From a virus: DNA of 52,930 nt. Location: the IMG/VR virus record IMGVR_UViG_3300024305_000003, positions 1 through 52,930 of that record; one strand, given 5' to 3'. A model generated the notes under the pieces. It ran no database searches. It was given only the letters and a program-made list of their open reading frames with translations, and had not been told where the DNA came from. Positions 6,444 through 50,100 of the stretch are shown here, in pieces. Made by a program: the position numbers and the translations under genes. Numbering within the stretch: position 1 is the first letter of the stretch; each line of letters begins with the position of its first letter.

Positions 6444-6477
6444 GGCTTGCCTCGGAATGCAGGGATAGGGAAAAGCC

Positions 6478-6498
6478 GCCCAGCGCTGCGCGCCGGGC
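6478..6498 (-). other. GC hairpin downstream of VR2
   Basis: Inverted repeat with nine-base arms (one G-T pair) and a three-base loop, on the coding side 13 bases after the stop codon of the VR2 gene. No T-tract follows, so it is not a good terminator. Its place matches the hairpin after VR1 and the structures known to aid target recognition in BPP-1. Confidence 0.7.
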
Positions 6499-6511
6499 AA
6501 ATTCATAAAGG

Positions 6512-7093
6512 CTAAATTTTCAATCTGCGGACGGGGCGCACCAGATACGCATCGGTCTTGCCGTAGTTGTACTGGGAGCCATCGCTGAAGCGCTGGATCC
6601 AGGCGCGGTAGGTGTTGGGAGCGTACTCAGTCGAGGTCCAATACCATTCGCCATCCTTGAATGACTCCGGGGCGTTGATCCACGCCAGCGCGAGCTCTGC
6701 CTTGGATGGCAGGTAGAAGTCCCCGAAATCGCCCTGCTTGAAGGCAGCGGCATATTCGGCGGCCGGGTGATCACTTTCAGCGAGCAGCGCTCGGGTATTG
6801 CTGGCGCCGTCGCGCAGGCTTGAGGCGCTCGACTTCTTGCCGTAGCCACCCCATTCCAGCTCTGGATCCTCATGCTCGACGGGAACGATGAGATGCCAGC
6901 GCTCGCCGTTGTCATGCATCACGCCGGCGTAGATGCCGCCTTGCTCTGGCCACATCTGCCCTGGGGAGTGGGTGGTCGGGCAGTCATTGCGGGTCGCGCT
7001 GGAGAGCTCGATCTCAAGCGCGACCCTGATCAGCTCCGGGTTGTCAGTGATGATTCTGGTGTTTCCTTCGGTCAGTTCGATGAGGCGGCTCAT
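6512..7093 (-). CDS. DGR variable protein 2, DUF1566/C-type-lectin-like
   Basis: A 193-residue soluble protein, with no signal peptide or membrane segment, ending in a DUF1566 (Lcl-type, C-type-lectin-like) domain. Seen: [13 protein letters not shown] (compare WHLPARDQLELLY in the tail target), [11 protein letters not shown], and the closing [11 protein letters not shown]. Residues 154 to about 190 are encoded by VR2, a copy of the template repeat changed only at adenines. Variable residues include Y, R, S, Y, Y, G and D where the template encodes Asn. An AAGGAG lies eight bases before the start. It is expressed from the early leftward operon, unlike typical virion targets. Ligand and role are unknown. 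Confidence 0.85.
6523..6634 (-). repeat. DGR variable region VR2 (remote)
   Basis: A 112-bp match to the template repeat at 34258-34369. Ten positions differ, all of them adenine in the template (A to T, C or G). The first 24 and last 28 bases are identical in TR, VR1 and VR2. It lies on the opposite strand, about 27.6 kb from the TR. Confidence 0.95.
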
Positions 7094-7148
7094 GTGACGG
7101 GCTCCTTGCTGGCGTAAATATGGTGTGCGTGACGCATTGGCGTGACGG

Positions 7149-7409
7149 CTAGGGTGTTTTGATCAGGTCGGCATGGACGGACGGCGCTTGCTGGCTTAGC
7201 CGGTACGCTCCGTGGATCAGGCGGGTTATAAAGTCTTGGGGCTCGTCGATGCCGGCCCGCCCCATCATCTCCACAAGCTTGGCGTCGGTGCCCTTGAACA
7301 AATCGAGCTTGATCGAGCGGGAGAGGAGGCGGGCCAGCCGCTCTTCCTCGGCGAGCTTGTCGCGCTCGCGCTTCTCACGCTGGCGGTCAGTGGCGGACTT
7401 GGCTGTCAT
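7149..7409 (-). CDS. Hypothetical small helical protein
   Basis: An 86-residue highly charged protein. The first 45 residues are Arg/Lys/Glu-rich (DRQREKRERDKLAEEERLAR) and predicted helical, followed by DAKLVEMMGRAGIDEPQDFI and a short tail. The start at 7409 forms an ATGA overlap with the stop of the upstream gene. The pattern suits a small DNA- or RNA-binding phage protein, but no family is recognised. Confidence 0.55.
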   Translation of the reverse strand: MTAKSATDRQREKRERDKLAEEERLARLLSRSIKLDLFKGTDAKLVEMMGRAGIDEPQDFITRLIHGAYRLSQQAPSVHADLIKTP

Positions 7410-7804
7410 GCGCGGCACCGCCCGTCGTCGCGCAGTTCTATGCCGTACTTGGCAGCGATCTGCTCCACCATCACGGTGTTGAGCTTGAAGCCTTGCCCTT
7501 TGAGGGCCTTGTAAATCTCGTAGGAGGTGCGCCCGATGGGGCCGTGCTCCGTCTCGATGACGGCCAGGTCGGCGATGCGCCCAGCAAGCTCGGCCTGTTG
7601 CCGCTCCTGCTCGCGGCGCGCCTTTGCCTGGCGGGTGATGCTGGTGTTCCAGCAGGACGGCTTCTGCGGTGCACGCTCGGCGTGGTCGAGCCGGGTGATC
7701 GATCCGCCGCCCGCCAGAAAGGCGCCGACATGGACAAGTAGGGCGCGGCGATCCGTCTCCCGGCCCGGCGGGGTCGGAAGGTTGAGTGTGGTGAGGTGGT
7801 GCAT
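7406..7804 (-). CDS. Hypothetical phage protein
   Basis: About 132 residues, unassigned. Seen: an N-terminal segment with GRETDRRALLVHVGAFLAGGG, a charged helical stretch (QAKARREQERQQAELAGRIA), and a C-terminal segment IGRTSYEIYKALKGQGFKLN that could form a small helical DNA-binding unit. The ATG at 7804 has GGAG just upstream; extending further would need a TTG start. It lies between the recombination pair and the VR2 gene. Confidence 0.55.
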   Translation of the reverse strand: MHHLTTLNLPTPPGRETDRRALLVHVGAFLAGGGSITRLDHAERAPQKPSCWNTSITRQAKARREQERQQAELAGRIADLAVIETEHGPIGRTSYEIYKALKGQGFKLNTVMVEQIAAKYGIELRDDGRCRA

Positions 7805-12116: not shown

Positions 12117-13004
12117 TCAGGCGCAGCGCTCGCGCCACCAGCCAACAGTCAGGTCGGCCAGTTCGCCAGTGTTGCCGGCCTCGATAACCTCGATGCCTGT
12201 CGCGCGAATGCGATCGATCTGCCTGCGGGTGACGGCATCGTGCTTGCGGAACTCCAAGCTGGTCAGGCCGCTGTCGGCGCGGGGAACCAGAACCGATATG
12301 GCGGCGGCCTGGCGGTCGGAGTTGCTGCGGATGAGGTTCAGGTCAGCTGAAGCCTGCAGCAGATTGATCTCCACCACCAGAGGGCTCTTATACCATGCCG
12401 AAACGATGGTTCCGGATGCGCTGGCGCTCAGCAGAGGAACGTCCATCTCGATGCGATGCCCGCTGGAGCGTAACGGCAGCTGGAAGCGCTCGGTCTGGAT
12501 GATGCGAGAGGCCTGCATGTGCATCCGTTGCTTCATCAGATCGAACACCGAGGAGCGGAGCTTGGGCGTGGACTGATAGCGGAATGCATATTCCTGGGCG
12601 CCTTGGCGGGGCCGGCCAAGCGTGACAACGTCGTGATAGAACTCATCAACGACCGCCTCGGCGCTTACGCCAGATGCGAACAGTGGAGCGCCAAGCCGTA
12701 TGGTGTCGCTGAGCATGTCCGGGAGGTCCGCGCCGGTGTCCATGATCGACGCTTCGATGTCGTAGAGCAGGTGGGCCAGATCGTTATGATCGATACGGTC
12801 CTCGTATAGGCACTTGAGGCGATCGAAGTTATCGAGCATCCGCACCTCTACGCTGCCGGCATGGGTAAACATGACGCCTACATTGAGGAACTCGCCAGAG
12901 TCTTCGTCCAGGCAAACGCTGATCGGCCGCCAGTACCCTTTGACGACAGGAGTATCTGAGCGCTTCTCAGTTAATCGGGAGCGTAGTCGGGCGACTGCGT
13001 TCAT
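12117..13004 (-). CDS. DUF3037-like partner of HipA-like kinase
   Basis: A 295-residue protein. The N-terminal block (GYWRPISVCLDEDSGEFLNV, followed by GVMF) resembles the opening of DUF3037 proteins, which are known as neighbours of HipA-like kinases. The remaining 200 residues are unassigned. Its ATG overlaps the stop of the kinase gene (ATGA at 13001-13004), so the two are translated together. Co-expression with the repressor suggests activity in the lysogen, as a defence, exclusion or toxin-antitoxin-like pair (inference). It is longer than simple DUF3037 proteins as I recall them. Confidence 0.6.
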   Translation of the reverse strand: MNAVARLRSRLTEKRSDTPVVKGYWRPISVCLDEDSGEFLNVGVMFTHAGSVEVRMLDNFDRLKCLYEDRIDHNDLAHLLYDIEASIMDTGADLPDMLSDTIRLGAPLFASGVSAEAVVDEFYHDVVTLGRPRQGAQEYAFRYQSTPKLRSSVFDLMKQRMHMQASRIIQTERFQLPLRSSGHRIEMDVPLLSASASGTIVSAWYKSPLVVEINLLQASADLNLIRSNSDRQAAAISVLVPRADSGLTSLEFRKHDAVTRRQIDRIRATGIEVIEAGNTGELADLTVGWWRERCA

Positions 13005-13879
13005 ATCAAATGGCCTGCCGCCTTGGCGTAGGATGCGGGATCGAGCAAATCTTGCAGCAACTGGATGATGGCGTCGATGTCGATCTGCTCGAAGAACTCA
13101 GACAGCACTTGCCGCGCTGCGTTCTCGCCATCCTGCCGGAAGCTCACTGCAAAGCCATTATATGCCATGACTCGAATACCCGAGTTGGGCAGCTTCTCGC
13201 TCCAGTGCGGGTTGTGCAGGTCGATCAGCCACTGGAGCCTGTTTATGCATGGGTCGGGGAAGGTGCCGGTGCGCCCGGGCGTCCAGTTGGGGAAGTTGAG
13301 GATGCGCCCGTGATCGATGAGCGTCAGGCTGTTTGGCCCGGACGCAAGTAAGTTGCCCGCGTTGCGGTCCGAGTTCATCAGCCAGCCATCGAACGCGATG
13401 ACCTTGGGCGAGTCCGGGTTCTTGGCCAGCTCTAGTGAAAGGCGCTTCAGGCGCCGGTCATGCAAAGAGGTCAGCTGCGCACCACTGAGGTGCCGCTGTT
13501 TAAGGCTCGGGAACTGCATGTCCTGGCTGAACCAGCAGAAGTAGTCTTTCTGCTGATGGCGCCCTGCAGCCTTGTCCAGCTCAGGCCAGAGCGAAGCTGG
13601 GATCTGCTCTCGGTCAAGCATGATGATGCCGGCCGTAGACGGAACGGTCAGCCCACAGGACTTGGCGAGCACGTGGCCTAGCGCCTCGTTGATCAGCTCC
13701 TGGTTGGCTACGTACCGCCCTGTAGTCGGGCACTGGATCTGGTCGGTGAGCGGCTTTACGTAGCAGCGAATCGAGCCGGCCGCGGTGCGAACCTTGGCTC
13801 TGAAAATCGGACTTATCCCCTTGCTCGCCGGTTCGCGGAGCGTACCCCCAAAAGCGTCACTGCTTAGAATTTCGATCAT
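13001..13879 (-). CDS. HipA-like kinase family protein
   Basis: A 292-residue protein of the HipA-like (HipA_2-type) kinase group. The catalytic loop is visible as FDGWLMNSDRNAGNLL with D171 and N176. The metal-binding aspartate is D189 in LIDHG, where typical kinases have DFG. An N-terminal lobe lysine is plausible at K42 (CYVKPL). It lacks the N-terminal subdomain of full-length HipA. Its start lies within the end of the repressor gene (23-base overlap), and its stop overlaps the DUF3037-like gene. It probably phosphorylates a host or phage protein; the target is unknown. Confidence 0.75.
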   Translation of the reverse strand: MIEILSSDAFGGTLREPASKGISPIFRAKVRTAAGSIRCYVKPLTDQIQCPTTGRYVANQELINEALGHVLAKSCGLTVPSTAGIIMLDREQIPASLWPELDKAAGRHQQKDYFCWFSQDMQFPSLKQRHLSGAQLTSLHDRRLKRLSLELAKNPDSPKVIAFDGWLMNSDRNAGNLLASGPNSLTLIDHGRILNFPNWTPGRTGTFPDPCINRLQWLIDLHNPHWSEKLPNSGIRVMAYNGFAVSFRQDGENAARQVLSEFFEQIDIDAIIQLLQDLLDPASYAKAAGHLI

Positions 13880-15597: not shown

Positions 15598-16389
15598 ATG
15601 GCTGGTGACTGGATCAAGTTCGAACTGATCACCCTCGATAAGCCTGAGGTCTGCCAGATCGCGGACGCTGCTGACATCGATTGTGATGCGGTGGTGGGCA
15701 AGCTGCTGCGCGTGTGGGGCTGGTTCGATCAACAGACGGCAGACGGTAACGCTCCGAGCGTTAGCAAGCGGTTACTGGATCGGATGGTTGGCGTTACCGG
15801 TTTCTGTGAACACATGAAATCGGTGGGATGGATGGTCGAGGCCGACGGCACGATCAGTCTGCCCAATTTCGACCGCCACAACGGCAAAACCGCCAAGAAC
15901 AGGCTTCTCACGGCTAAACGGGTCGCTGCGCACAAGGCTGCTAACGGTAAAGGTAACGCCAAGGGTAACGCTGCGAACGTTAGCGATGCGTTACCTAAAG
16001 AAGATGTAGAGAAGAGTAAAAGCAATACCCCCTTAAGCCCCCCTGCCGGGGGCGGCGCGCAGGACGATTCGCCTGACCAGGGTGAGCAACCAGAGCCCAA
16101 GCCGGCGACCAAGGCCAAGCGCGGCACCCGATTGCCGGACACCTTCCTGCTGACCACGGACATGGCTCGCTGGGCGAGAGACCGGGCGCCAGGGGTGAAC
16201 CTGAGCCTGGCGACCGAGAAGTTCGTGAACTACTGGCGCGGCAACGGCAAGACCAAGGTCGACTGGGTGGCCGCCTGGCGCAACTGGGTGCTCGAGGAGC
16301 AGGACCGGGCCAACTCGCGCCGCGGAGCGCCAGCGGCAGAGCCTGATTTCGAAAGTACCGAGTGGGCCAAGGATCTGGGAGAGCTGTGA
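15598..16389 (+). CDS. Replication initiator, phage O-like
   Basis: A 263-residue protein in the position of lambda O. The N-terminal 100 residues (DWIKFELITLDKPEVCQIAD through LPNFDRHNGKT) fit the winged-helix DNA-binding domain of phage replication proteins. A Lys/Asn/Gly- and Pro-rich linker follows, then a C-terminal block (RLPDTFLLTTDMARWARDRA through WVAAWRNWVLEEQ) typical of DnaT/O-type helicase-recruitment regions. Five copies of an octamer lie inside the gene, as expected if the origin is internal. It is coupled to the P-like gene by a TGATG overlap. Confidence 0.75.
   Translation: MAGDWIKFELITLDKPEVCQIADAADIDCDAVVGKLLRVWGWFDQQTADGNAPSVSKRLLDRMVGVTGFCEHMKSVGWMVEADGTISLPNFDRHNGKTAKNRLLTAKRVAAHKAANGKGNAKGNAANVSDALPKEDVEKSKSNTPLSPPAGGGAQDDSPDQGEQPEPKPATKAKRGTRLPDTFLLTTDMARWARDRAPGVNLSLATEKFVNYWRGNGKTKVDWVAAWRNWVLEEQDRANSRRGAPAAEPDFESTEWAKDLGEL
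15745..15995 (+). repeat. Cluster of GGTAACGC octamers, candidate origin
   Basis: GGTAACGC or its complement occurs at 15745, 15791, 15952, 15964 and 15988, with an inverted pair TAACGC-N5-GCGTTA at 15747-15763. It lies inside the O-like gene, where lambdoid origins carry iterons. Confidence 0.5.
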
Positions 16390-20069: not shown

Positions 20070-20523
20070 GTTGGTGGCGTTTGTGTCCGCAGCCAGGGCG
20101 GCCTTTGGGAGAGCCTGGACATTCCCAGCCGGCGGTGGGGTGGTCATTGAAAAACACCGGCAGCCCGCGCGGGCCAGTTCCTACCCTACGGGGGCTCGGC
20201 GCGAGGGCGATCAGCTGAGACTGGTGCATTGGGGTGCCAGCGGCAGATAGCTCTTTGGCAGACAGCGCGGAAAGACGTGCACAACTTTCAAGGCCCCGCC
20301 AAGTGCGGGGCCTTTTCGTATCTGGCCCCGCCGCGAGGCGCTGCCAGGGTCACGTCGGGAGACGTTGCCACAAACCGCCCGGCTTCGGCTGGGCACCTCT
20401 TTCCGGCGCTCGGCCTGGGTCTTTGCTCTCTGGCGGATCGCAGCGCGCGAGCGTCGGGATTTACATGACACCACCAGGCCGAGTGCCGGGAGTGCCCGCG
20501 TGAAGCACACAGGTATCTACTCA
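20070..20523 (+). other. Non-coding stretch before lysis genes
   Basis: About 450 bases with no convincing gene or tRNA. It contains a strong terminator (20290-20316), a palindrome GCCCGCGCGGGC (20163-20174) and a GGC-TTCG-GCT-type hairpin near 20374-20391. The late promoter or antitermination site is expected here but not identified. Confidence 0.5.
20290..20316 (+). terminator. Intrinsic terminator upstream of late genes
   Basis: AAGGCCCCGC-CAAGT-GCGGGGCCTT followed by TT, a long GC stem. It is a candidate site for late antitermination since the lysis genes lie just beyond. Confidence 0.75.
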
Positions 20524-31816: not shown

Positions 31817-32134
31817 ATGGACGTATTTTCCAAGCAGCCAAATGACGTCCTGGATTACGACGTTGACCTGACCGACTGGTTTGCCGATATCGCGGACGAC
31901 GATATCGAGTCGGTCGAGATTACCGTCGCCAGCACAGCGGAGCCGGTACCGGCATTGGTGCTGGGCCCGGCGCCGCACAATCCCTACGTTCTGCTGGGCG
32001 CAAGCCCGCAGCGCTTCAAGCTGTGGCTGGGGGGCGGCACGCACTTCGTCGATTACATCGTGACCTGCGTCGTGCGCACCGAGCAGGACCGGGTTAAAGA
32101 AGTCGAGTTCAAGATCAAGGTGCGTGACAAATGA
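31817..32134 (+). CDS. Fibre-tail adaptor-like protein
   Basis: A 105-residue beta-sandwich-like protein: FSKQPNDVLDYDVDLTDWFA, FKLWLGGGTHFVDYIVTCVV and EVEFKIKVRD. It is similar in plan to small phage fibre-tail adaptor proteins. Its stop overlaps the start of the DGR target gene (ATGA), suggesting that it joins that receptor protein to the tail. Confidence 0.65.
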   Translation: MDVFSKQPNDVLDYDVDLTDWFADIADDDIESVEITVASTAEPVPALVLGPAPHNPYVLLGASPQRFKLWLGGGTHFVDYIVTCVVRTEQDRVKEVEFKIKVRDK

Positions 32135-33645
32135 GCTATGCCAATTTCGTAGAAACGCAGCTGGACGGGCCGTTGACGGCTGAAGGCCTTAGCCTGCTGC
32201 TTCAGCCTGCTCAGGCGCCATACCAGCTACCGCCTGCTGACGGCGGCGTGCTCGTGCTGGCGGACAGCATGGGCAAGCCTGCCGCTGTGGAAATCATCCG
32301 CTATGCCGCGCGTGACGGCCTGACCCTCACCGGGCTGGAGCGGGGGCTCGAAGGGACGGTTGCGCTGAACTGGCCCGGCAACAGCTACTGCTATCAGTCG
32401 CTGACGGCGGGCGGCTTCGAGGCGGTAAAAGAGATCATCGATGTCCATGTCGCCGACCAGAACCCACACCCGCAGTATCTGGTTGCCGAATCCGCCGTAA
32501 GCCTCGAAGGCCCGACCGGCATCTACATTGCGCAGAGCGTGCAATTCCAAATCACCGACTACGACGTGTTCAGTGGCTACCTGGTCCAGGTCTCGGCCGG
32601 CACCGCCAGCATTGCCGGCAGCACGATCAGTTTCACCGCGCCCATGGAGGCGGGCAGCGTGACGCTGACCGTATTCGCGGGCGACTACCGGCGCGACATC
32701 ACGCTGGAGATCCTGCCGGAGCGCCCTGCGGCGCCGGTCATCACATCACCGGAAGCCACCGGCGTCATGGGCAACCCGACGCTATCGACCGGCCCCTTCG
32801 CCCTGATCGGGCCGAACACCGACACCCATGCGGCGACCGACTGGGAAATCTGGACGGGGGCAGGGCGCACCGGGACGCTGGTCTGGTCCTCGCTGAACAA
32901 CTCCACCAGCAAGCTGAGCATCACGCTGCCGGAAAACACGCTGACCGTCGCGACGGACTACCACATGGCGGTTCGGCACATTGGCACAACGTTCGGCGCG
33001 GGCGAGTGGGCAGAGCTGGCGTTTCGGACGGCTGATCAGTTCCTGCCGACCGTCATCGGGCAGGCCTTTGGCGGCGGGTTCTACGCGGGCAAGATCCGCT
33101 ACGCCGATGGCGACTACATCATTATCGTCGCGCCCAAATCTGCCGAGGCCACTCTGGCTCACAAGACGGCGAACAGCGCGACCGCTGGGACGTCGAGCTA
33201 TCACGACGGCCTGGCGAACAGCAACAGCATGAACAACGCCACGCACCCGGCGGCCCAGTATTGCCGCGCCTACAACGGTGGCGGCTTTACCGATTGGCAC
33301 CTGCCCGCGCGCGACCAGTTGGAGTTGTTGTATCGGAACCTCAAGCCAGACACTACGGCGAACATCACTGGCTCGCGCGCCGAGGCCGGCAACCATGGTG
33401 ATAACGCCAACAGCGTCCCGGTTGGCGCTTCGTATACGACCGGCAGCCCGGCCCAGACATCGGCCGCAGCGTTCAAGACGGGCGGAGCCGAGGCATTCGC
33501 AGTGCCTACCTGGTACTGGACCTCGACTGAGTACGCTCCCAACACCAGCGCCGCCTGGGTCCAGCGCTTCAGCGATGGCGGCCAGAGCTTCAGCAACAAG
33601 GCCGTTGCGTATCTGGTGCGCCCCGTCCGCAGATTGAAAATTTAG
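32131..33645 (+). CDS. DGR variable protein 1, tail receptor-binding candidate
   Basis: A 504-residue tail-module protein. Region 1-115 looks like a fibre attachment part, about 120-200 is Ig-like beta-sandwich (SGYLVQVSAGTASIAGSTIS, then FTAPMEAGSVTLTVF), and about 200-300 is fibronectin-like. The C-terminal 190 residues form a DUF1566/C-type-lectin-like domain ([55 protein letters not shown]). Codons 465 to about 502 are VR1 of the retroelement, with 13 adenine-site substitutions. In BPP-1 the equivalent protein Mtd binds the bacterial receptor. Directly followed by the VR hairpin and Avd. Confidence 0.9.
   Translation: MSYANFVETQLDGPLTAEGLSLLLQPAQAPYQLPPADGGVLVLADSMGKPAAVEIIRYAARDGLTLTGLERGLEGTVALNWPGNSYCYQSLTAGGFEAVKEIIDVHVADQNPHPQYLVAESAVSLEGPTGIYIAQSVQFQITDYDVFSGYLVQVSAGTASIAGSTISFTAPMEAGSVTLTVFAGDYRRDITLEILPERPAAPVITSPEATGVMGNPTLSTGPFALIGPNTDTHAATDWEIWTGAGRTGTLVWSSLNNSTSKLSITLPENTLTVATDYHMAVRHIGTTFGAGEWAELAFRTADQFLPTVIGQAFGGGFYAGKIRYADGDYIIIVAPKSAEATLAHKTANSATAGTSSYHDGLANSNSMNNATHPAAQYCRAYNGGGFTDWHLPARDQLELLYRNLKPDTTANITGSRAEAGNHGDNANSVPVGASYTTGSPAQTSAAAFKTGGAEAFAVPTWYWTSTEYAPNTSAAWVQRFSDGGQSFSNKAVAYLVRPVRRLKI
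33523..33634 (+). repeat. DGR variable region VR1
   Basis: A 112-bp copy of the TR with 13 differences, all at template adenines. Changes affect nine codons, giving S, A, V, G, S, F, S, A and V where the template has N, N, I, N, N, N, N, T and N. Confidence 0.97.
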
Positions 33646-33679
33646 CCTTTGACCCTTTGATGCCCGCGCTTGCGCGGGC
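33635..33679 (+). other. Post-VR1 signal and hairpin
   Basis: The 16 bases after VR1 (TGAAAATTTAGCCTTT) are identical to those after VR2 and absent after the TR. At 33662-33679 a perfect eight-base stem GCCCGCGC/GCGCGGGC with a two-base loop follows, 16 bases after the stop codon. Equivalent structures help mark the DGR target in BPP-1. Confidence 0.75.
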
Positions 33680-33698
33680 TAGAGCCTGCAGTTTGCAC

Positions 33699-34109
33699 AT
33701 GTCCAAATCGAAAAACCTGCCGATCTACCGCGCCAGCTACGAGTTGTTGAGCCTGGTCACCGAGCTTATTCGTCACTTCGCCCGCGACTTTCGCCCATCG
33801 CTGGGTCAGCGCCTGCACAACGAGGCCGTACTGCTGGTGCTGATGATCTATCGCGCCAATGCGGCGGAGGACAAGCTGCCCTACATCGGCAAGCTGCTGG
33901 AAACGCTGCAGGTGGTGGAGATGCTGCTGCAGCTGTCCGCTGACCTCAAGCTGATCAGCCTGAAGCAATACGCCCGCTCCGCAGAGCTGACCGCCGATAT
34001 CGGCAGGCAGGCTGGCGGATGGCAAAAGTTCGCCGCGAGCGGTAACGCCTCGCGCAAACATCATGTCAGCAGGCTCAACGCGTCGCCCGCTGCTGGATTG
34101 CCACGGTGA
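33699..34109 (+). CDS. avd: DGR accessory variability determinant
   Basis: A 136-residue Avd-type protein. Seen: LPIYRASYELLSLVTELIRH, the block LHNEAVLLVLMIYRANAAED and the C-terminal LISLKQYARSAELTADIGRQ, then GGWQKF, matching the four-helix-bundle Avd family. Avd is a basic protein that binds the reverse transcriptase and template RNA and is required for retrohoming. The ATG at 33699 is chosen over an upstream one at 33657 because the latter would start within the VR1 hairpin region. Its C-terminal tail (about residues 115-136) extends beyond the core. Confidence 0.92.
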   Translation: MSKSKNLPIYRASYELLSLVTELIRHFARDFRPSLGQRLHNEAVLLVLMIYRANAAEDKLPYIGKLLETLQVVEMLLQLSADLKLISLKQYARSAELTADIGRQAGGWQKFAASGNASRKHHVSRLNASPAAGLPR

Positions 34110-34257
34110 TCCTTCCCGCGCGATTTATCTGGTTGCGTCCCTGGGCTGCGGCCCACGACAGGCCCTTGCGAAACCGCTGCACCATTGCAGCAGGTCTACG
34201 GGCAGTTTCCCGGCTGATCGGCACACGCCTTCGGCTGGGCGACGTGAAGACGCAACT
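34110..34257 (+). ncRNA. 5' part of the DGR template RNA
   Basis: 148 bases between Avd and TR with no clear gene of their own. In BPP-1 the template RNA begins upstream of the TR near the avd end and continues into the reverse-transcriptase gene. The same layout is inferred here. Confidence 0.5.
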
Positions 34258-34369
34258 TCGACTGAGTACGCTCCCAACACCAACAACGCCTGGATCCAGC
34301 GCTTCAGCGATGGCAACCAGAACAACAACAACAAGACCAATGCGTATCTGGTGCGCCCCGTCCGCAGAT
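34258..34369 (+). repeat. DGR template repeat TR
   Basis: 112 bp that match VR1 and VR2 except at adenines. It has 33 adenines, of which 24 lie in the 60-base core made of AAC-rich codons (seven AAC). The 24 leading and 28 trailing bases are the same in all three copies. The TR ends at a change from the shared AGAT to AACC and is followed by a CCCC-GCA-GGGG hairpin (34372-34382). Confidence 0.97.
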
Positions 34370-34391: not shown

Positions 34392-35492
34392 ATGACCCCA
34401 ACCATGGAAGAAATCGTGGTCGCCTACAGCGACTGCAGGAAAGGCAAGCGCAACACCGACAGCGCGATCGCCTTCGAGCTGCGCCTGGCGCGCAATCTGT
34501 GCCGGCTGCGCGATGACCTGGCGTCCGGCCGGTACCGGATCGGCGCGAGCCGCTGTTTCGTGGTCACCAACCCGAAGCCTCGCGAGGTGTGGGCTGCTGC
34601 GTTCCGTGACCGAATCGTCCACCACATTATGTACAACCGGATCGCGCCGGCTTTCGAGGCCTCGTTCTCGGCGGCAAGCTGCGCCTGCATCCCGGGTCGT
34701 GGAACGCTGTACGGCGCCAAGCGGCTGGAGCGCCAGGTTCGCAGCGTTACGCAGAACTGGTCTCGCCGCGCCTACTACCTGAAGCTGGATCTCTCGAACT
34801 TCTTCGTGTCGATTCATCGGCCGACCCTGTTCGGGCTGCTCGAGCCGAAGCTGGGTAGCGGCTGGACCCGAAGCATTACCGAGCAGATCCTTTTTCACGA
34901 TCCGCTTCCAGAGGTCGACGTGCGCAGCCCGCCTGAGCTGATGGCCCTGGTTCCTCGACACAAGAGCCTGTTCCACGCAGCAGAAGGATGCGGCCTACCA
35001 ATCGGCAACCTGTCGTCGCAGTTCTTCGCCAACGTCTACCTGAACGCCCTGGACCAGTTCATCGGGCACCGAATCAAGCCGAAGGGCTACATCCGCTACG
35101 TCGACGACTTCATCCTGCTGCACGAAAGCACCGAGTGGCTGGCCGAGGCCAAGGGGCGCATTGAGGCGTTTCTGGACTCGCGCCTGCGGGCCGCAATCAA
35201 CCCGACCAAGACCGTACTGCAGCCAATCGATCGCGGCGTCGATTTCGTCGGCCAGGTCGTAAAGCCGTGGCGGCGCGTCCTGCGGGGCCGGATGTTGCCG
35301 TCCGCCATCCGCCGGGTTGCCGCGGCTGGGGATCCGGACTCCCGACGCAGCAGCGCCAACAGCTACCTCGGCCTGATGCGCCAGTGCGGCGCCTTCCGAG
35401 AGCGAGCAGATATCGCACGCCTCATGCTGCGCCACGGGCACCCCGTTGACGCCAAGTTTACCCGCGCCTACGCGCACGCTGGAGACCTGTAA
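34392..35492 (+). CDS. DGR reverse transcriptase
   Basis: A 366-residue reverse transcriptase of the DGR clade. The motif A aspartate is D133 in LKLDLSNFF, the DGR-type motif GLPIGNLSSQ is at 201-210, and the catalytic YVDD is at 236-239. A conserved FVVTNPKPREVW block and an N-terminal region of about 110 residues precede the palm. These enzymes copy the TR RNA into cDNA with errors at adenines, and the cDNA replaces the VR. It begins 22 bases after the TR. Confidence 0.96.
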   Translation: MTPTMEEIVVAYSDCRKGKRNTDSAIAFELRLARNLCRLRDDLASGRYRIGASRCFVVTNPKPREVWAAAFRDRIVHHIMYNRIAPAFEASFSAASCACIPGRGTLYGAKRLERQVRSVTQNWSRRAYYLKLDLSNFFVSIHRPTLFGLLEPKLGSGWTRSITEQILFHDPLPEVDVRSPPELMALVPRHKSLFHAAEGCGLPIGNLSSQFFANVYLNALDQFIGHRIKPKGYIRYVDDFILLHESTEWLAEAKGRIEAFLDSRLRAAINPTKTVLQPIDRGVDFVGQVVKPWRRVLRGRMLPSAIRRVAAAGDPDSRRSSANSYLGLMRQCGAFRERADIARLMLRHGHPVDAKFTRAYAHAGDL

Positions 35493-42888: not shown

Positions 42889-44130
42889 ATGGCAGGACTA
42901 GATACCCGCGGGGCCTTCGACGGCTTCGTGCAGGGCTTCAACATGATGGACGCCTATAACCACCGCAAGGCGTCCAGTGCTCGCGCCGACCAGGCGCTAC
43001 AGATGCAGCAGCGCGGCCTCGAGATGCGCGAGCAGGAGTTTGCCGCGCAGCAGGAAGGCCGTCAGAAAGAGCAGGATCAGCAGCAGATCGCCCAGTTCTA
43101 CACGGGCTGGGCCAGCGGCATCGAGGCGCCCATCACGCCAGAGCTCGAGCAGGCCTTCGCGCGCAACAAGCTGGCGGACCCTCGCCACCTGTTTCGCCCG
43201 GAAACCGAAGCGGCCGTGCAGTACGCCGACAAGCTGGCCGGCGGCGAAGGCTCGCTGTTCAGCCAGCAGACCGTCGACGCCATGAACGACTTCTACGCGC
43301 CCCGGGTGAACCGCGGCAACGGCGGCAAGAAGCGTCTGGCTGGCATGTACCCCGGGCAGAAGGAAGGCTCGTTCGTGTTCGAACTGGAAGTCGAGGACGA
43401 GCAGGGCAACAAGCGCCTAGCACCGATGACGGTGAACCGCGGCCTGGAAGGAGAAGACGACGAGGTCGCGCAGTACGAGATCGATCAGGCGATCGCTCCG
43501 GTGATGGGGGCGAAATCGATCTACCAGGCGCTCGGCCAGAACCGCGAAAAGATGCTGGGCTACCTGCGCAGTTCCGGGTACCTGCCCAAGGAAGCCGAGA
43601 AGTGGGAGCTGGTCGAAGGTCCGGACGGCGCAATCCTTCAGCGCAATGCGGCGACCGGTAAAATGGAGAGCGTCGTCGGTCGAAAGTCAGTCGGTGCCGG
43701 CGGAGCTTACGCGCCGAGCAGCGACGTGAAGACCCTCGAGTACCTGAAAGCCAACGGCATGAGCGACCAGCAGGCCCGCGACGAACTGGTGCGCCTCAAG
43801 CGAGGCGGAAGCGACAGCAGCATCAGCGCAGGCGATCGCTACCGGGTGGACTACCTCACCAGCCAGATCAAGGAAATCGACTCTCAGCTTGAAGCGTTCC
43901 CGGATGCGGATACCGAGGCTGCATTGCGTCAGCAGCGCGCGGAACTGATCCAGGCTCGCGAAGGAATGGCTCAGCAGCTCGGCCTGGTCGGCGCGCCTGA
44001 GCCGGCGCAGCAGGCAGAACAGCCCGCAGCGCAAGCCTCATCGTCCGCGCCGAAGGTGGGGCAGGTGGAAGACGGCTACGAATTCCTCGGTGGCGATCCT
44101 GCCAGCCCGGAAAACTGGAGGAAGAAGTAA
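42889..44130 (+). CDS. Candidate ejection/internal virion protein
   Basis: A 413-residue protein. Helical N-terminal third (LQMQQRGLEMREQEFAAQQE), a middle globular part (QKEGSFVFELEVEDEQGNKR), and a Gln/Ala-rich disordered tail ending in a block EFLGGDPASPENWRKK. The terminal motif is common in proteins next to giant polyvalent proteins. The ATG at 42889 follows GGGAGG. It overlaps the polyvalent gene by a single base (TAATG). Confidence 0.55.
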   Translation: MAGLDTRGAFDGFVQGFNMMDAYNHRKASSARADQALQMQQRGLEMREQEFAAQQEGRQKEQDQQQIAQFYTGWASGIEAPITPELEQAFARNKLADPRHLFRPETEAAVQYADKLAGGEGSLFSQQTVDAMNDFYAPRVNRGNGGKKRLAGMYPGQKEGSFVFELEVEDEQGNKRLAPMTVNRGLEGEDDEVAQYEIDQAIAPVMGAKSIYQALGQNREKMLGYLRSSGYLPKEAEKWELVEGPDGAILQRNAATGKMESVVGRKSVGAGGAYAPSSDVKTLEYLKANGMSDQQARDELVRLKRGGSDSSISAGDRYRVDYLTSQIKEIDSQLEAFPDADTEAALRQQRAELIQAREGMAQQLGLVGAPEPAQQAEQPAAQASSSAPKVGQVEDGYEFLGGDPASPENWRKK

Positions 44131-47100
44131 TGGCGGGGCCTTGGGAGAAGTACCAGCAGCAGCCTGCCATCGAACAGACAGCGCCAGGGCAGGCGGGGCC
44201 GTGGGCCAAGTATCGGGCCGCCGAGCCGGCAAACGATGCGCCGGCCGAGGCGGCAGGCGAGCAGGGTGGCATCCAGGCCGCTGACTTCGGCAAGGAACTG
44301 GCCGGCGGGGCGCTGATTGGCACCGGCTCTGTCGTAAGCGGCTTTGGCGACCTGCTGACAACGGCAGGTGGGGCGATTGAGCGCGGCGCACGCGCGGTCC
44401 TGCCAGGTGGCACAGTCGACGCACTGAAGAGCATCCCCGCACCAAGCGACCTGCTGTTTCGCCCGGCGGGCCGGCAGATCGAGGCGGCGGGCAAACAGGT
44501 CCAGGCCACCAAAACCGATGCGGCCAAGCAGGCACTGGAAGCCAGCACCCCGCAAGGCGACGTGCTCGACCCGTCCAGCTGGAGCATGGGTGACGATCCG
44601 TCCTTGGTCGGCTACGGGCTGCATGGCGCGAACCTGGTCGGCCAGTTTGTGCCGCAGGCTGCCGCACTCGCCATTCCGGGCGGGCAGGCGCGCATGACCG
44701 GCATGGCCGGCATCGGCGGGCTACAGGCGGGCGGCTCGGCAGGCAACGAAGTCGAGCAGCGCCTTGCGGCCATCCCGGACGCTGAGTTGCAGCAGGTGTC
44801 CGACCTCTACCGCGAGCTTCGCGCGGGCGGCGTGGAAGAGGCGGATGCCCGCGCCCATGTTTCTGCTACCGCACGCGCTGCCGCCTTCCAGGGCGCGGCT
44901 CCGGCTGGCGCTCTGGGCGGCGCAATGACGAACTACGCACTGGGCCCACTACAACGCCAGATCGGCGGCGGCGTCGGTCGACGACTGGCAGGCGGCTTGC
45001 TGCTGGATGCGCCTGCCGAAGGCGCGCAGGAGGTGAGCGAAGCCGTTGCTGCACGGGCGGCGACGAACAGGGCCATCGGCGAACAGCGCGACCTGACCGA
45101 AGACACCTTCGGCGATGCAGTGCTTGGCGCGATGGGTGGCGCTGGTCACGCGACACTTGGCGCGGCGCTGGGCCGCCCGCAGCCGCAGGCGCGCCCTGCC
45201 GAACCTGCTGCTGAAGCCGACGCTACGTTCGACGATACCCCCCAGACCGCGGCGCTGCCGGCGCCGGGGCTGCAGGGCCTGCCCTCGCCCGAGCCGACCT
45301 TCTTCGCCGACCGCCAGGGCAACGTCCAAGACGTCGGCCCGGTGCGCAACGTCGACGGCCAGATGCAGCCAGCCCCGCAGGGGCGCCAGTGGGTCAATCC
45401 GCGCAACCGCGCTGATCGCCCGGTGGGTGGCGAAGGCATGGAGCGCCAGGTGCCACGGGGCGAGCCGGCGCCACTCGAGGGTCAGTTTCAGCACGGGAGC
45501 CGCCAGCGGGTAGCCGAAGCCGCCACGCAGAAGGGCCGGACCCTGGAAGGCGAAACCCAGCAGGCAGCCTTGCCGCAGCCCGAGGCTATCGTGGTCGACG
45601 GCCAGGGCAATGCGCAGCGTGGCGCCACGGCGCCGCAGACATTCGAGCGCCCCCTGGCGGGCGGCCGCGGCATGGACCAGCAGGCGCCAACCGCCATTCG
45701 CCGCGAGGATGACTTCGTGATCCTGACCCGCGCCACAGGCGAGCCGTTCCAGGCGCACGGCGCAGCGAAGGCCAGCAAGGCGTTCCGCGAAGCCAAGAGG
45801 GCAGGCCGTAACCCGACGGTCGCCAAGGTCGATGGCGGCTTTGCCGTGCGCGTGCCGGCAGATCCGAAGCGTTACCAGATGCGCCCCGTCGATCAGGCGG
45901 CACATGAGGCGGCGACTTCGCCTAGCAACGACCTGCCTGCCCCTACGCCTGCGCAGATCGAGGCCGGTAACTACAAGAAGGGCCGTGTTCGGGTGCAGGG
46001 GCTGGACATCTCCATCGAGAATCCGCGAGGCTCCGAGCGCAGCGGCACCGGGCCGGACGGCACGCCGTGGCGCCGCACCATGAGCGACCACTACGGCTAC
46101 ATCAAGCGCACCACCGGCGCCGACGGCGAGCAGGTGGATGTCTATGTGGGGCCGCAAGAGGACAGCGATCAGGTGTTCGTGGTCGACCAGATCAACCAGC
46201 AGGATGGCAGCTTCGATGAGCACAAGGCCATGCTGGGCTATCCCGACCAGGCGACTGCGCTGCAGGCGTACAGCGCCAACTTCGACAAAGGCTGGAAGGT
46301 GGGGCCGGTCACCGCCATGCCGGTGGCCGAGTTCAAGTCGTGGCTGAAAGGCGGGGCGCTTTCCAAGCCTCTCGCACTGCCGAGCCCGATCGTCCAGCCG
46401 GCGGCGGCCGCTGCGCCGCAGAAGCCGCAGGAAAAGTCCAAGCCGAAGGGCGCACGGCGCGCCGTGGACCGAGACCGCGATAGCGTCGTGCAGGCAGCCA
46501 TCCGGCTCGGCGGCATCACCAATCGATGGAAGCAGGACACCACCGGCGACACCAAGGGCAACAAGAGCATCCCGGGCATTGGCGCGCTCTGGAGCGACGT
46601 TACCGGGACCAGCCTGGATGACATGGCGTCGCTGCTCGACCAGCACGGCTACGTGCCTGCCGGCGAGATGGATCGGGACGGCGGCGTGAGCTGGCTGCAG
46701 GACGCGCTGCGTGACGAGCTCGCTGGCCGAAAGACCCACTATGCGCCAGACTCTGCCCGGCAGCTGGAGCAATACGAGCTGGAGATGCTCGACCGCATCA
46801 ATGAACAGCTGGCGGCCGAGCGCGACTTGCGCGAAGCTGAATATGCACGCATCGAGGCCGAGCATGGCCCTGAAGCCGCTGCTGATGCGCGCTCGTTCGA
46901 CGAGATGGCCATCGCTCGCAGCGAACAACTTGATGGAGCCCTGGAAGATGCCCAAACAGACCCCGACACCTACGTCGACGGAGAGCCCGTTGACGAAGCT
47001 GCAGCCGCCCGCCGTGACGACGAAATTCGGCAAGCTGATGAGCGAGAAGATCGCGCTGCAGGAGAAGATCCTGGCACGGCGTTCGACCTCGAGCAGCAAA

Positions 47101-50100
47101 CCGAAGCAGGACTGAAAGAGCAGGCGGAGCGCAACGCTGCCGCCGAGAAGGCCCGCGCCGATCAGGAGCGCGAGGCCGAGCAGAAGGTTCAGGCCGACCG
47201 CGACCGCGAAGACTTCACCCTTACCGGCTCCAACCGGATATCTGACGTTGCCGCCGCGCGCGGGCAGAACGATATGTTCGGCGCCCAGCCGACCACTCCC
47301 GCCAGCAAGGCCAAAGAGCAAGCGACCGAACTGGTCAAGGGCAAGCCGAGCCCTGCAAAACCAGCCGCCGAGCCAAAGCCTGTCAAGGTCGAAGACTTCG
47401 GCGAGAAGCTGGGCGGCGCCCGCAAAGATGAGCTGCGCGGCGTGCGCGAGCGCCTGGACAACATGGACGACCAGGGCATTGCGAACAGCAAGCTCAGCGA
47501 GCTATGGCCAAAGGGCGAGATAGACCGGATCGAAGACAGCTTTCACGCCGCTGCCTACCAGACGGTGCGCGATTTCATCCCGGCCAAGCCGCGCGTTTCG
47601 TACAGGGTCGCCGGCTGGGTCAATCGGGTGAAGGCTGCACGCGAACTTCTCGCCGAACTGTCCCGGCTGGGCAGCGAATCGACCGTCGCGAAGATGCGCG
47701 AGTTCAGCCCTTCGCTGCGGTCGGTGGCGGACAAGATCGAGCTGCTGATGGGCATCGAACGCTCGCAGTGGGGCCGGATCGGGCGCGTAAGCATGGCCGT
47801 TGGCAGCTTCAGCCAGGACGGGCAGATGGTGCCGGGCTCTTGGGCGGAAGTAGAGATCGACGGCCGCAGCAAGCACTTCTACGGCAAGAAATCCATTGCT
47901 GAGGCGATAGGCGACATTCGCTTGGCGCTGAACCTGAACGCAGCCCCCGAAAAGAAGATGAAGTTCGACGTCTACTCGGACCGAGGGACCGGAGAGGTGT
48001 TCATCGCGAAGAATGGCGACCGCGAAACCAGACGGCTCGCCACCTTCAAGACTGTTGCCGAGGCCAGGGACCACATCGCAAACAGTCATGAAAGCCTGGT
48101 CGCTGCATGGGATGCCGTGAAGAACCGCGACAACGTGACCAAGGCCGACATGCGCCGCAGCCTCAATGAGGTGCGCGCGGGCACTGATCACCGCGGCGGG
48201 GCCGACATCACCCCCGAGCAATTCCTTGAGGCGTTCGGCTTCAGGGGAGTTGAGTTCGGCAACTGGGTCGCGCAGGGTGCTGCGCGCGATGGCCGGCAGG
48301 GCATGCTCAACGACGCCTACGATTCCTTCATGGATCTGGCCGAAGTGATCGGCGTGCCGCCAAAGGCGCTGAGCCTTGAGGGCCGTCTGGGCATTGGTTT
48401 CGGGTCGCGCGGGCGAGGCCGGGCCAGCGCTCACTTCGAGCCGGGCACCGTCGTCATCAACCTGACCAAGACCAAGGGTGCGGGCTCGCTGGCGCACGAA
48501 TGGTTTCATGCGCTCGACAACTATTTCGCCGGCAAGCGTGGCGAGAGTGACGCCGGAAAGGTGCGTGAGGCTTCCTACATCACCTACCGCCCAGAACCGA
48601 TGCTGGTAAACAAGAAGTATCCGGCGCAGCGCATGACTCGCGCCAAGCTGGATATGTACCAGGCCAATCACCCGAACGCGCCCCTGTACGCCGAGGAGAA
48701 CTGGACCGCAGACCCCGCCCACCCCGAAGGCGTCCGGCCGAAGGTCGAGAAGGCATTCGCCGAGCTGGTGGAAACCCTTGACCGCTCGCCGATGGCGAAG
48801 CGCTCTGCTGTGCTGGACAGAGGGACGGCAGATGGCTACTGGTCGCGCATCATCGAGCGTGGCGCTCGCTCCTTTGAAACCTACGTGATCGCGCGGCTGG
48901 CGGACCGCGGTTATCGCAACGACTACCTGGCGAACGTCCGCACGCTCGAGGAATTTTCGCGCAGCCAGGACCGCTACCCCTACCTGACCCCGGACGAGCA
49001 GGGGCCGGTTAACGAGGCCTTCGACAAGCTGTTCGCCACCATCGAAACCCGCGAAACCGATTCTGGCGTGAGCCTCTACCGGCTGGATGACGGGGAGAAC
49101 GGTCAGCTGCAGGCTGACGCTGTCACGCAGGCGCTCGCAGCATCACCCGAGCTTGCTGGCGTCAAGGTCGTGCAGTCCTTCGACGACTTGCCGCTATCGG
49201 CACGCATCCGGGCGAAGCGTGACGGTGTTGCGCCGGACGAACTGCGCGGGATCTTCAGCAGTGGGGCGACCTATGTGGTTGCCGGCAACCATGCCAGCGT
49301 TACCGACGCGCTCTATACCGCTGTGCATGAAGAGGTTGGCCACCGCGGCATCCATGGCCTGCTGGGCGACAAGCTGGACGCCACCATGGAGCGGCTCTAT
49401 GCCAGCCAGGCCGCCAGCGCCAAGGGCCGCCAGCGCATCGCACAGATTCGCGAGGCCTATGCCAAGGTGCTGCGCAAGCTCGACGCCCGCAAGCGGCGCC
49501 TGATGATCGCCGAGGAAATGGTGGCGCTGCTCATCGAGGACGGCGAGCGGCCTACCGCGCTGCAGCGTGTGCTGTCGAAGATCCGCGAGCTGCTGCGCGC
49601 GCTGATTCCGCAAGTGCCCTGGACCTATACCGACATTCTGGCGCTGGGCGAGCAGTCCCGTCGTTGGCTGCGCGACAACCAGGCCGGCGCCGCGGATGGC
49701 GAGCGGATGCTCTATGCCTTGGGCGGCAAGCGGCAGCATACCTCCGAGGCGTTCACCGACCTGACCGCCAAGCAGAAGGAGGCGCTGAACAAGATTGCCC
49801 CGCGCACTGCCAAGCAGCAGGCCATCGACTGGTTCCGCGACCATTCGGACCGGGCGCTGCTGAAGATCCGCCAAGGCCTTGTCGACCGCTATGCAGCACT
49901 GCGCGAGCTGGACGAGGCAGCGCACGGCAAGGATGTGCTGAGCACCGACATTGCCAGCAGCGCCTGGGTACTGGCGCGCATGTCGTCGGCGGCCAGCGGC
50001 GCACTGCATGCCATGCTCAACAACGGCCGCATTTACCTGGACCAGCAGCAGAAGGTGATCGACATTCAGGACGGCGAGGCGCTCGGCCTGGGCGCGACGC

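Follow-up and report, generated by a model that had tools for sequence, protein, structure and literature searches.

A second variable repeat in an early gene of a Pseudomonas-type podovirus as a probable target of its tail-module DGR

The best-understood targets of phage DGRs are tail proteins. In the stretch of viral DNA analyzed here (52,930 nucleotides, referred to as the window), the template repeat (TR) of a DGR located among the tail genes has two variable counterparts, VR1 in a tail fibre gene and VR2 in a small gene of the early operon. This raises the question of whether one DGR can diversify two proteins encoded in different modules. To judge from the sequence features described below, the single DGR cassette that rewrites the tip of the tail fibre very probably also targets a small early protein encoded 28 kb away on the other strand.

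The DGR core in the tail module

The window is the sequence of a temperate phage of the Pseudomonas type with a podovirus structural module resembling those of P22 and T7. An integrase gene at the left end is followed by a leftward early operon, a rightward replication module, and then the terminase, portal, head, and tail genes. The DGR core is found in the tail module and consists of the tail fibre gene with VR1, avd, the structured RT-15 RNA, TR, and the reverse transcriptase (RT) gene (Table 1). The assignment of VR1 to a tail protein, made in the original prediction, is well supported by the fibre-tail adaptor gene (Pfam Gp77) directly preceding the VR1 gene.

Table 1. Positions of the DGR components, their targets, and neighboring elements in the window
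Feature	Position	Strand	Basis or remarks
Accessory slot with the VR2 gene, bounded by the phrog_4093 gene and NA37	6447..7146	-	Empty in L142; other 255-aa gene in L136
Hairpin GCCCGGCGC-GCA-GCGCTGGGC downstream of VR2, one G-T mismatch	6478..6498	-	Also scores as intrinsic terminator
AT-rich tract immediately 3' of VR2 GTCCGCAG	6503..6524	-	77% AT, as in VRs and unlike TRs
VR2 target gene, 193-aa A-type Lcl_C protein	6512..7093	-	Pfam Lcl_C 34.8 bits (cut-off 34.9); phrog_4245 E 1.6e-31
VR2, 112-bp variable repeat	6523..6634	-	10 changes from TR, all at TR adenines
Two 31-nt iterons in the O-like replication-initiator gene, likely origin	15745..15994	+	Direct repeats 15745-15775 and 15964-15994, 81%
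Fibre-tail adaptor gene, Gp77 family, directly upstream of VR1 gene	31817..32134	+	Pfam PF23148 E 3.1e-16
VR1 target gene, tail-fibre-like protein of 504 aa, B-type Lcl_C domain at C terminus	32131..33645	+	Pfam Lcl_C 48.1 bits; B-type on tree
VR1	33523..33634	+	13 changes from TR, all at adenines; allele differs in every relative examined
Hairpin GCCCGCG-CTTG-CGCGGGC 3' of VR1	33662..33679	+	Kept in L004-L008, missing after TR
avd (accessory variability determinant)	33699..34109	+	Pfam bAvd 42 bits (cut-off 40); part of ORF 33657-34109, start codon inferred
RT-15 RNA, the structured portion of the DGR RNA 5' of TR	34081..34262	+	Rfam RF03018, 116.3 bits
TR, 112-bp core	34258..34369	+	
DGR reverse transcriptase, 366 aa, single ORF, motifs IGNLSSQ and YVDD	34392..35492	+	Pfam RVT_1 E 1.3e-14

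A DGR-type RT, Avd, a TR close to the RT gene, and adenine-specific differences of the VRs were all identified in the window, and the relatives of the RT include the Brt protein of Bordetella phage BPP-1. An IMH-like 3' end and a downstream stem-loop were found for both VR1 and VR2, and TR has neither the AT tract nor the hairpin. The alleles of VR1 differ among all eight relatives compared (L004, L005, L006, L007, L008, L258, L259, and L260). Set against a TR that is the same in the window, L004, and L007, this amounts to natural variation with a constant template, so that the DGR is active at VR1.

Relatives of the VR1 tail fibre that retain Lcl_C were also seen in records G460 to G464 (those of loci L354, L355, and L359 to L361), in which no DGR RT was found and contig ends may hide it. 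Elsewhere in the window, we identified a Proteo-phage-1 structured RNA (20087 to 20165, plus strand; Rfam RF03044, 65.3 bits) and a gene for a 2739-aa polyvalent protein with InPase, LPD1, LPD5, and LPD38 domains (44130 to 52349, plus strand).

VR2, its gene, and its 3' elements

As had been predicted, VR2 proved to be the 112-bp TR with ten changes, every one of them at a TR adenine (10/10; hypergeometric P = 1.6e-6, with 33 adenines among the 112 bases of the TR core); for VR1, the corresponding figures are 13/13 and P = 1.7e-8. Taken alone, the pattern in VR2 is unlike the product of point mutation. All 37 third codon positions of VR2 are unchanged with respect to TR. VR1 and VR2 are read in the same frame in their respective genes and do differ from each other, at 17 sites that are all TR adenines. 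VR2 and TR belong to an inverted pair of 115 nt (6523 to 6637 and 34255 to 34369) with 27,617 nt separating the arms, in agreement with the predicted distance of ~27.6 kb and the opposite strand, and VR1 and TR belong to a direct repeat (33520 to 33634 and 34255 to 34369). The notion of one RT and one TR serving two VRs in different modules is thus supported, but the two proteins are not unrelated as first supposed: each terminates in an Lcl_C (C-type lectin) domain, with ~33% identity over 191 aa.

VR2 constitutes the C terminus of an intact ORF (6512 to 7093), with a Shine-Dalgarno-like AGGAG upstream of its ATG. A structural model of the protein (pLDDT, 88.7) predicts a C-type-lectin fold, for which the best PDB match in Foldseek was the C-terminal domain of Legionella Lcl (8q4e; E = 6e-5). 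A C-type-lectin target domain with a C-terminal VR is found in both proteins, as Lcl_C in the VR1 protein and, in the VR2 protein, with a score 0.1 bit below the Pfam cut-off and a fold like that of 8q4e. Inspection by eye revealed no apparent signal peptide in the VR2 protein.

The leftward early operon comprises genes for a C5-methyltransferase, NA37, the VR2 protein, YqaJ, RecT, and a repressor-like protein. The C5-methyltransferase, NA37, YqaJ, and RecT genes are all on the minus strand, which bears out the predicted location of VR2 among recombination and methyltransferase genes; genes for nucleoid-associated functions are also part of this context. The nonstructural nature of the VR2 gene is supported by this position and by homologues in the early operons of Pseudomonas phages. 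The gene occupies a slot between the phrog_4093 gene (7149 to 7418) and NA37, whose true start is near 6445. In relative L142, only ~80 bp separate these two genes, and in relative L136, the slot holds a gene for a 255-aa protein of unknown function (L136 positions 12483 to 13250). Since the content of the slot differs in the window, L142, and L136, the VR2 gene is cargo of a variable slot. Beside the repressor gene, a HipA_2-like gene (12117 to 13879, minus strand; 25.5 bits, Pfam cut-off 27) adjoins a DUF3037-like gene, and the two may form a toxin-antitoxin or defence pair.

The window is a virus record, and repeats of 112 bp can mislead short-read assembly, so that an assembler might have spliced a VR into an unrelated early gene. 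We find this hardly credible, as VR2 has ten substitutions of its own and is in frame with the A-type gene, and the early-operon sequence flanking it on both sides matches L142 and L136.

The 3' flanks of the repeats were compared across loci L004 to L083 and L265 to L344. The AT content following the IMH-like GTCCGCAG averaged 71% in 241 VR flanks versus 46% in 122 TR flanks, and the AT tract of VR2 was equalled by the window background in 0.05% of draws. A GC-rich hairpin was present in 69 of the 241 VR flanks, compared with none of the 122 TR flanks and 4.3% of random window positions. The VR hairpins of this clade usually begin 25 to 31 nt past GTCCGCAG, and their commonest loops are CTTG (30 cases) and GCA (9 cases); that of VR2 begins 26 nt after CCGCAG and has the loop GCA. 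The AT tract after GTCCGCAG and a hairpin with a CTTG or GCA loop make a usable signature separating VRs from TRs in this DGR clade. In the BPP-1 DGR, a stem-loop 3' of the IMH has been described as helping retrohoming (PMC12875486).

The VR2 stem is followed by CTTTT and passes the terminator scan, and it could be read as a transcription terminator only, which would leave VR2 with no target-site element. However, its stem, its GCA loop, and its position at 26 nt agree with what is seen in VR hairpins of the clade, the sequence after the VR1 hairpin is TAGAGC and not a T-run, and the roles of terminator and target site can coexist; we consider the terminator-only explanation quite unlikely. 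VR2 is unlikely to be a decayed copy, since it carries the cis features that real targets possess and TRs do not. Nor did we see any sign of the decay and loss of expression against which the original prediction had cautioned: the ORF is intact, and it has a ribosome-binding site and VR-type cis elements.

Relatives of the two targets and the origin of the early gene

In a tree of the constant parts of the targets, A- and B-types separate with 100/99 support; VR1 groups with the B-type and VR2 with the A-type, both on long branches. The simplest reading of this grouping is that the usual pair of A and B targets has been split here, so that the tail fibre next to the DGR core has the B domain fused to it and the early operon holds the A gene.

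No close homologue of the VR2 gene was found in the viral_contigs set or the GTDB contigs, and its best match in 398 Pseudomonadaceae genomes was 48% identical. The eight best homologues in these genomes were all located beside Avd and an RT. In Pseudomonas phages Haboob, phPA-G, and Cruim01, full-length homologues of the VR2 protein are DGR targets, encoded in early operons where Avd and RT adjoin them. Phage U7 has a full-length homologue in its early operon and no RT match in the region inspected, and orf68 of D3 gave a partial match. The homologues inspected are thus usually in early operons and beside an Avd-TR-RT set of their own.

At least two VRs were found in 68 of the 76 GTDB loci that have a VR, and two tandem targets are the rule in related DGRs. 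Remote VRs at 3 to 10 kb are common in the same RT clade, which indicates that this type of DGR needs no adjacency of its targets. Many early-operon DGRs of the clade (loci L014 to L082 and L274 to L324) have a third VR 3 to 10 kb upstream on the same strand. A VR on the opposite strand was seen in none of the other clade loci searched, where ~150 RT loci were scanned for TR-like repeats within 10-kb flanks. A second tail DGR with a remote early target was likewise found neither in these loci nor in 49 records scanned for Lcl_C, nor in the orphan A-type records checked for an RT. G455, in which a VR lies 44 kb away, was considered as such a case and rejected; it is compatible with circular permutation of the contig, the VR then being the usual remote one ~9 kb upstream.

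As the original prediction had proposed, TR-like repeats were sought in relatives and the VR1 alleles compared. The DNA pattern search returned copies of VR1 and TR only, with VR1 different in each relative. No second VR2 allele was found, and no relative carrying the TR of the window has VR2, RT relatives L004 to L008 included. VR2 could be a frozen copy, that is, an older VR1 allele that recombined into the early gene and has undergone no retrohoming since, a reading with which the single VR2 allele is compatible. The 3' flank TTGAAAATTTAGCCTTT, which is the same in VR1 and VR2 and missing from TR, can also be taken in this sense, with the VR1-type end stemming from recombination. However, TTGAAAATTTAG also occurs 3' of a VR in another DGR, L020, and hence need not derive from VR1. 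In addition, VR2 equals none of the nine VR1 alleles seen and retains all cis elements, and the remote VRs of the clade generally have zero or one non-A change, as ongoing homing predicts. We therefore regard a frozen copy as unlikely. The identity of VR1 and VR2 at the 5' TGGTAyTGGACC was also considered as a sign of recombination and rejected, because the conserved WYWT residues account for it.

We favor the reading of VR2 as a live target. Probably, the phage acquired the VR2 gene as a lone accessory gene in a slot that already existed, and the gene would have brought along at its end a VR, a stop codon, and 3' elements suited to the tail DGR.

Mechanism, precedents, and implications

RT and Avd would produce adenine-mutagenized cDNA from the TR RNA, and this cDNA would replace either VR by retrohoming, which would require homology and 3' cis elements and not adjacency. 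A DGR supplied on a plasmid edits chromosomal targets, which indicates that adjacency is not required, and a reconstituted DGR edits best those targets that point away from the replication origin (PMC12875486). In the window, the iterons suggest that the origin is likely to be within the O-like gene (15598 to 16389; phrog_2509); GC skew gave no clear origin signal. With the origin in this gene, VR1 (plus strand, 33.6 kb) and VR2 (minus strand, 6.5 kb) would both point away from it, codirectional with the forks. With the proposed retrohoming mechanism, orientation, and gene gain included, we hold it to be highly likely that the single DGR of this phage has a true second target in VR2.

The split-target architecture is not new, with one earlier report, on the gut Bacteroides phage Quimbyvirus (PMC8008677; Microbiome 2021). 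Like the window, it has one DGR with two C-type-lectin targets, one downstream of the tail fibre genes and the other nonstructural and encoded far away on the opposite strand, in the neighborhood of methyltransferase genes and a nuclease gene (PMC8008677). The Quimbyvirus-type layout of a structural target and a distal, opposite-strand, nonstructural one is thus found in the window. The RT of Quimbyvirus, however, is split over three frames, whereas no split over overlapping frames is seen in the single 366-aa RT ORF of the window. The window also differs in its Lcl_C targets, its Pseudomonas-like host lineage, and an early target with known homologues. The resemblance is one of layout, not lineage. 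What is new here is a member in Pseudomonas-type podoviruses, an unrelated phage group, and a better-resolved origin of the early target.

The early-operon DGRs of Haboob, phPA-G, and Cruim01 resemble that of the window in their RTs (55 to 57% identical), Avd, and RT-15 RNA (annotated in Cruim01), as well as in an A-type target homologous over its full length to the VR2 protein in a leftward early operon. Their targets, however, lie beside Avd-TR-RT, whereas the window has its core among the tail genes and an A-type target that stands by itself. In nd4 and nd12, unlike in the window, both targets are within the DGR cassette. The window is set apart in host group and target fold from nd4 and nd12, from the Faecalibacterium phages Lelie and CP11, and, as cited in PMC11792537, from Roseburia phage Shimadzu. 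The DGR of BPP-1 is similar in its tail location, its VR in a receptor-binding protein, and its IMH and stem-loop 3' of the VR, but it has one target and its RT is only 32% identical. A literature search for early DGR targets of Pseudomonas yielded nothing specific.

The A-type VR2 protein is probably an early, intracellular C-type-lectin binder. For the distal target of Quimbyvirus, a role in phage-host conflict was suggested by the authors as a proposal (PMC8008677). Our guess, offered tentatively, is that the surface of the VR2 protein is diversified against a variable intracellular partner such as a host defence protein or a protein of a competing phage. More speculatively still, one DGR and one template might serve two phases of life, with the tail fibre acting in attachment and the cytoplasmic early protein binding a variable factor of the host or of a rival phage in counter-defence or superinfection control.

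The phage of the window cleanly separates the tail type of DGR target from the early, apparently intracellular, type. Since the A-type gene stands alone in a swappable slot that is empty in a relative, its deletion as a single gene would leave the DGR and the tail untouched. The phage is also a test case for a single template whose two targets lie on opposite strands and both point outward from the likely origin. If the two-phase reading is true, specificity at entry and specificity after entry would evolve together.
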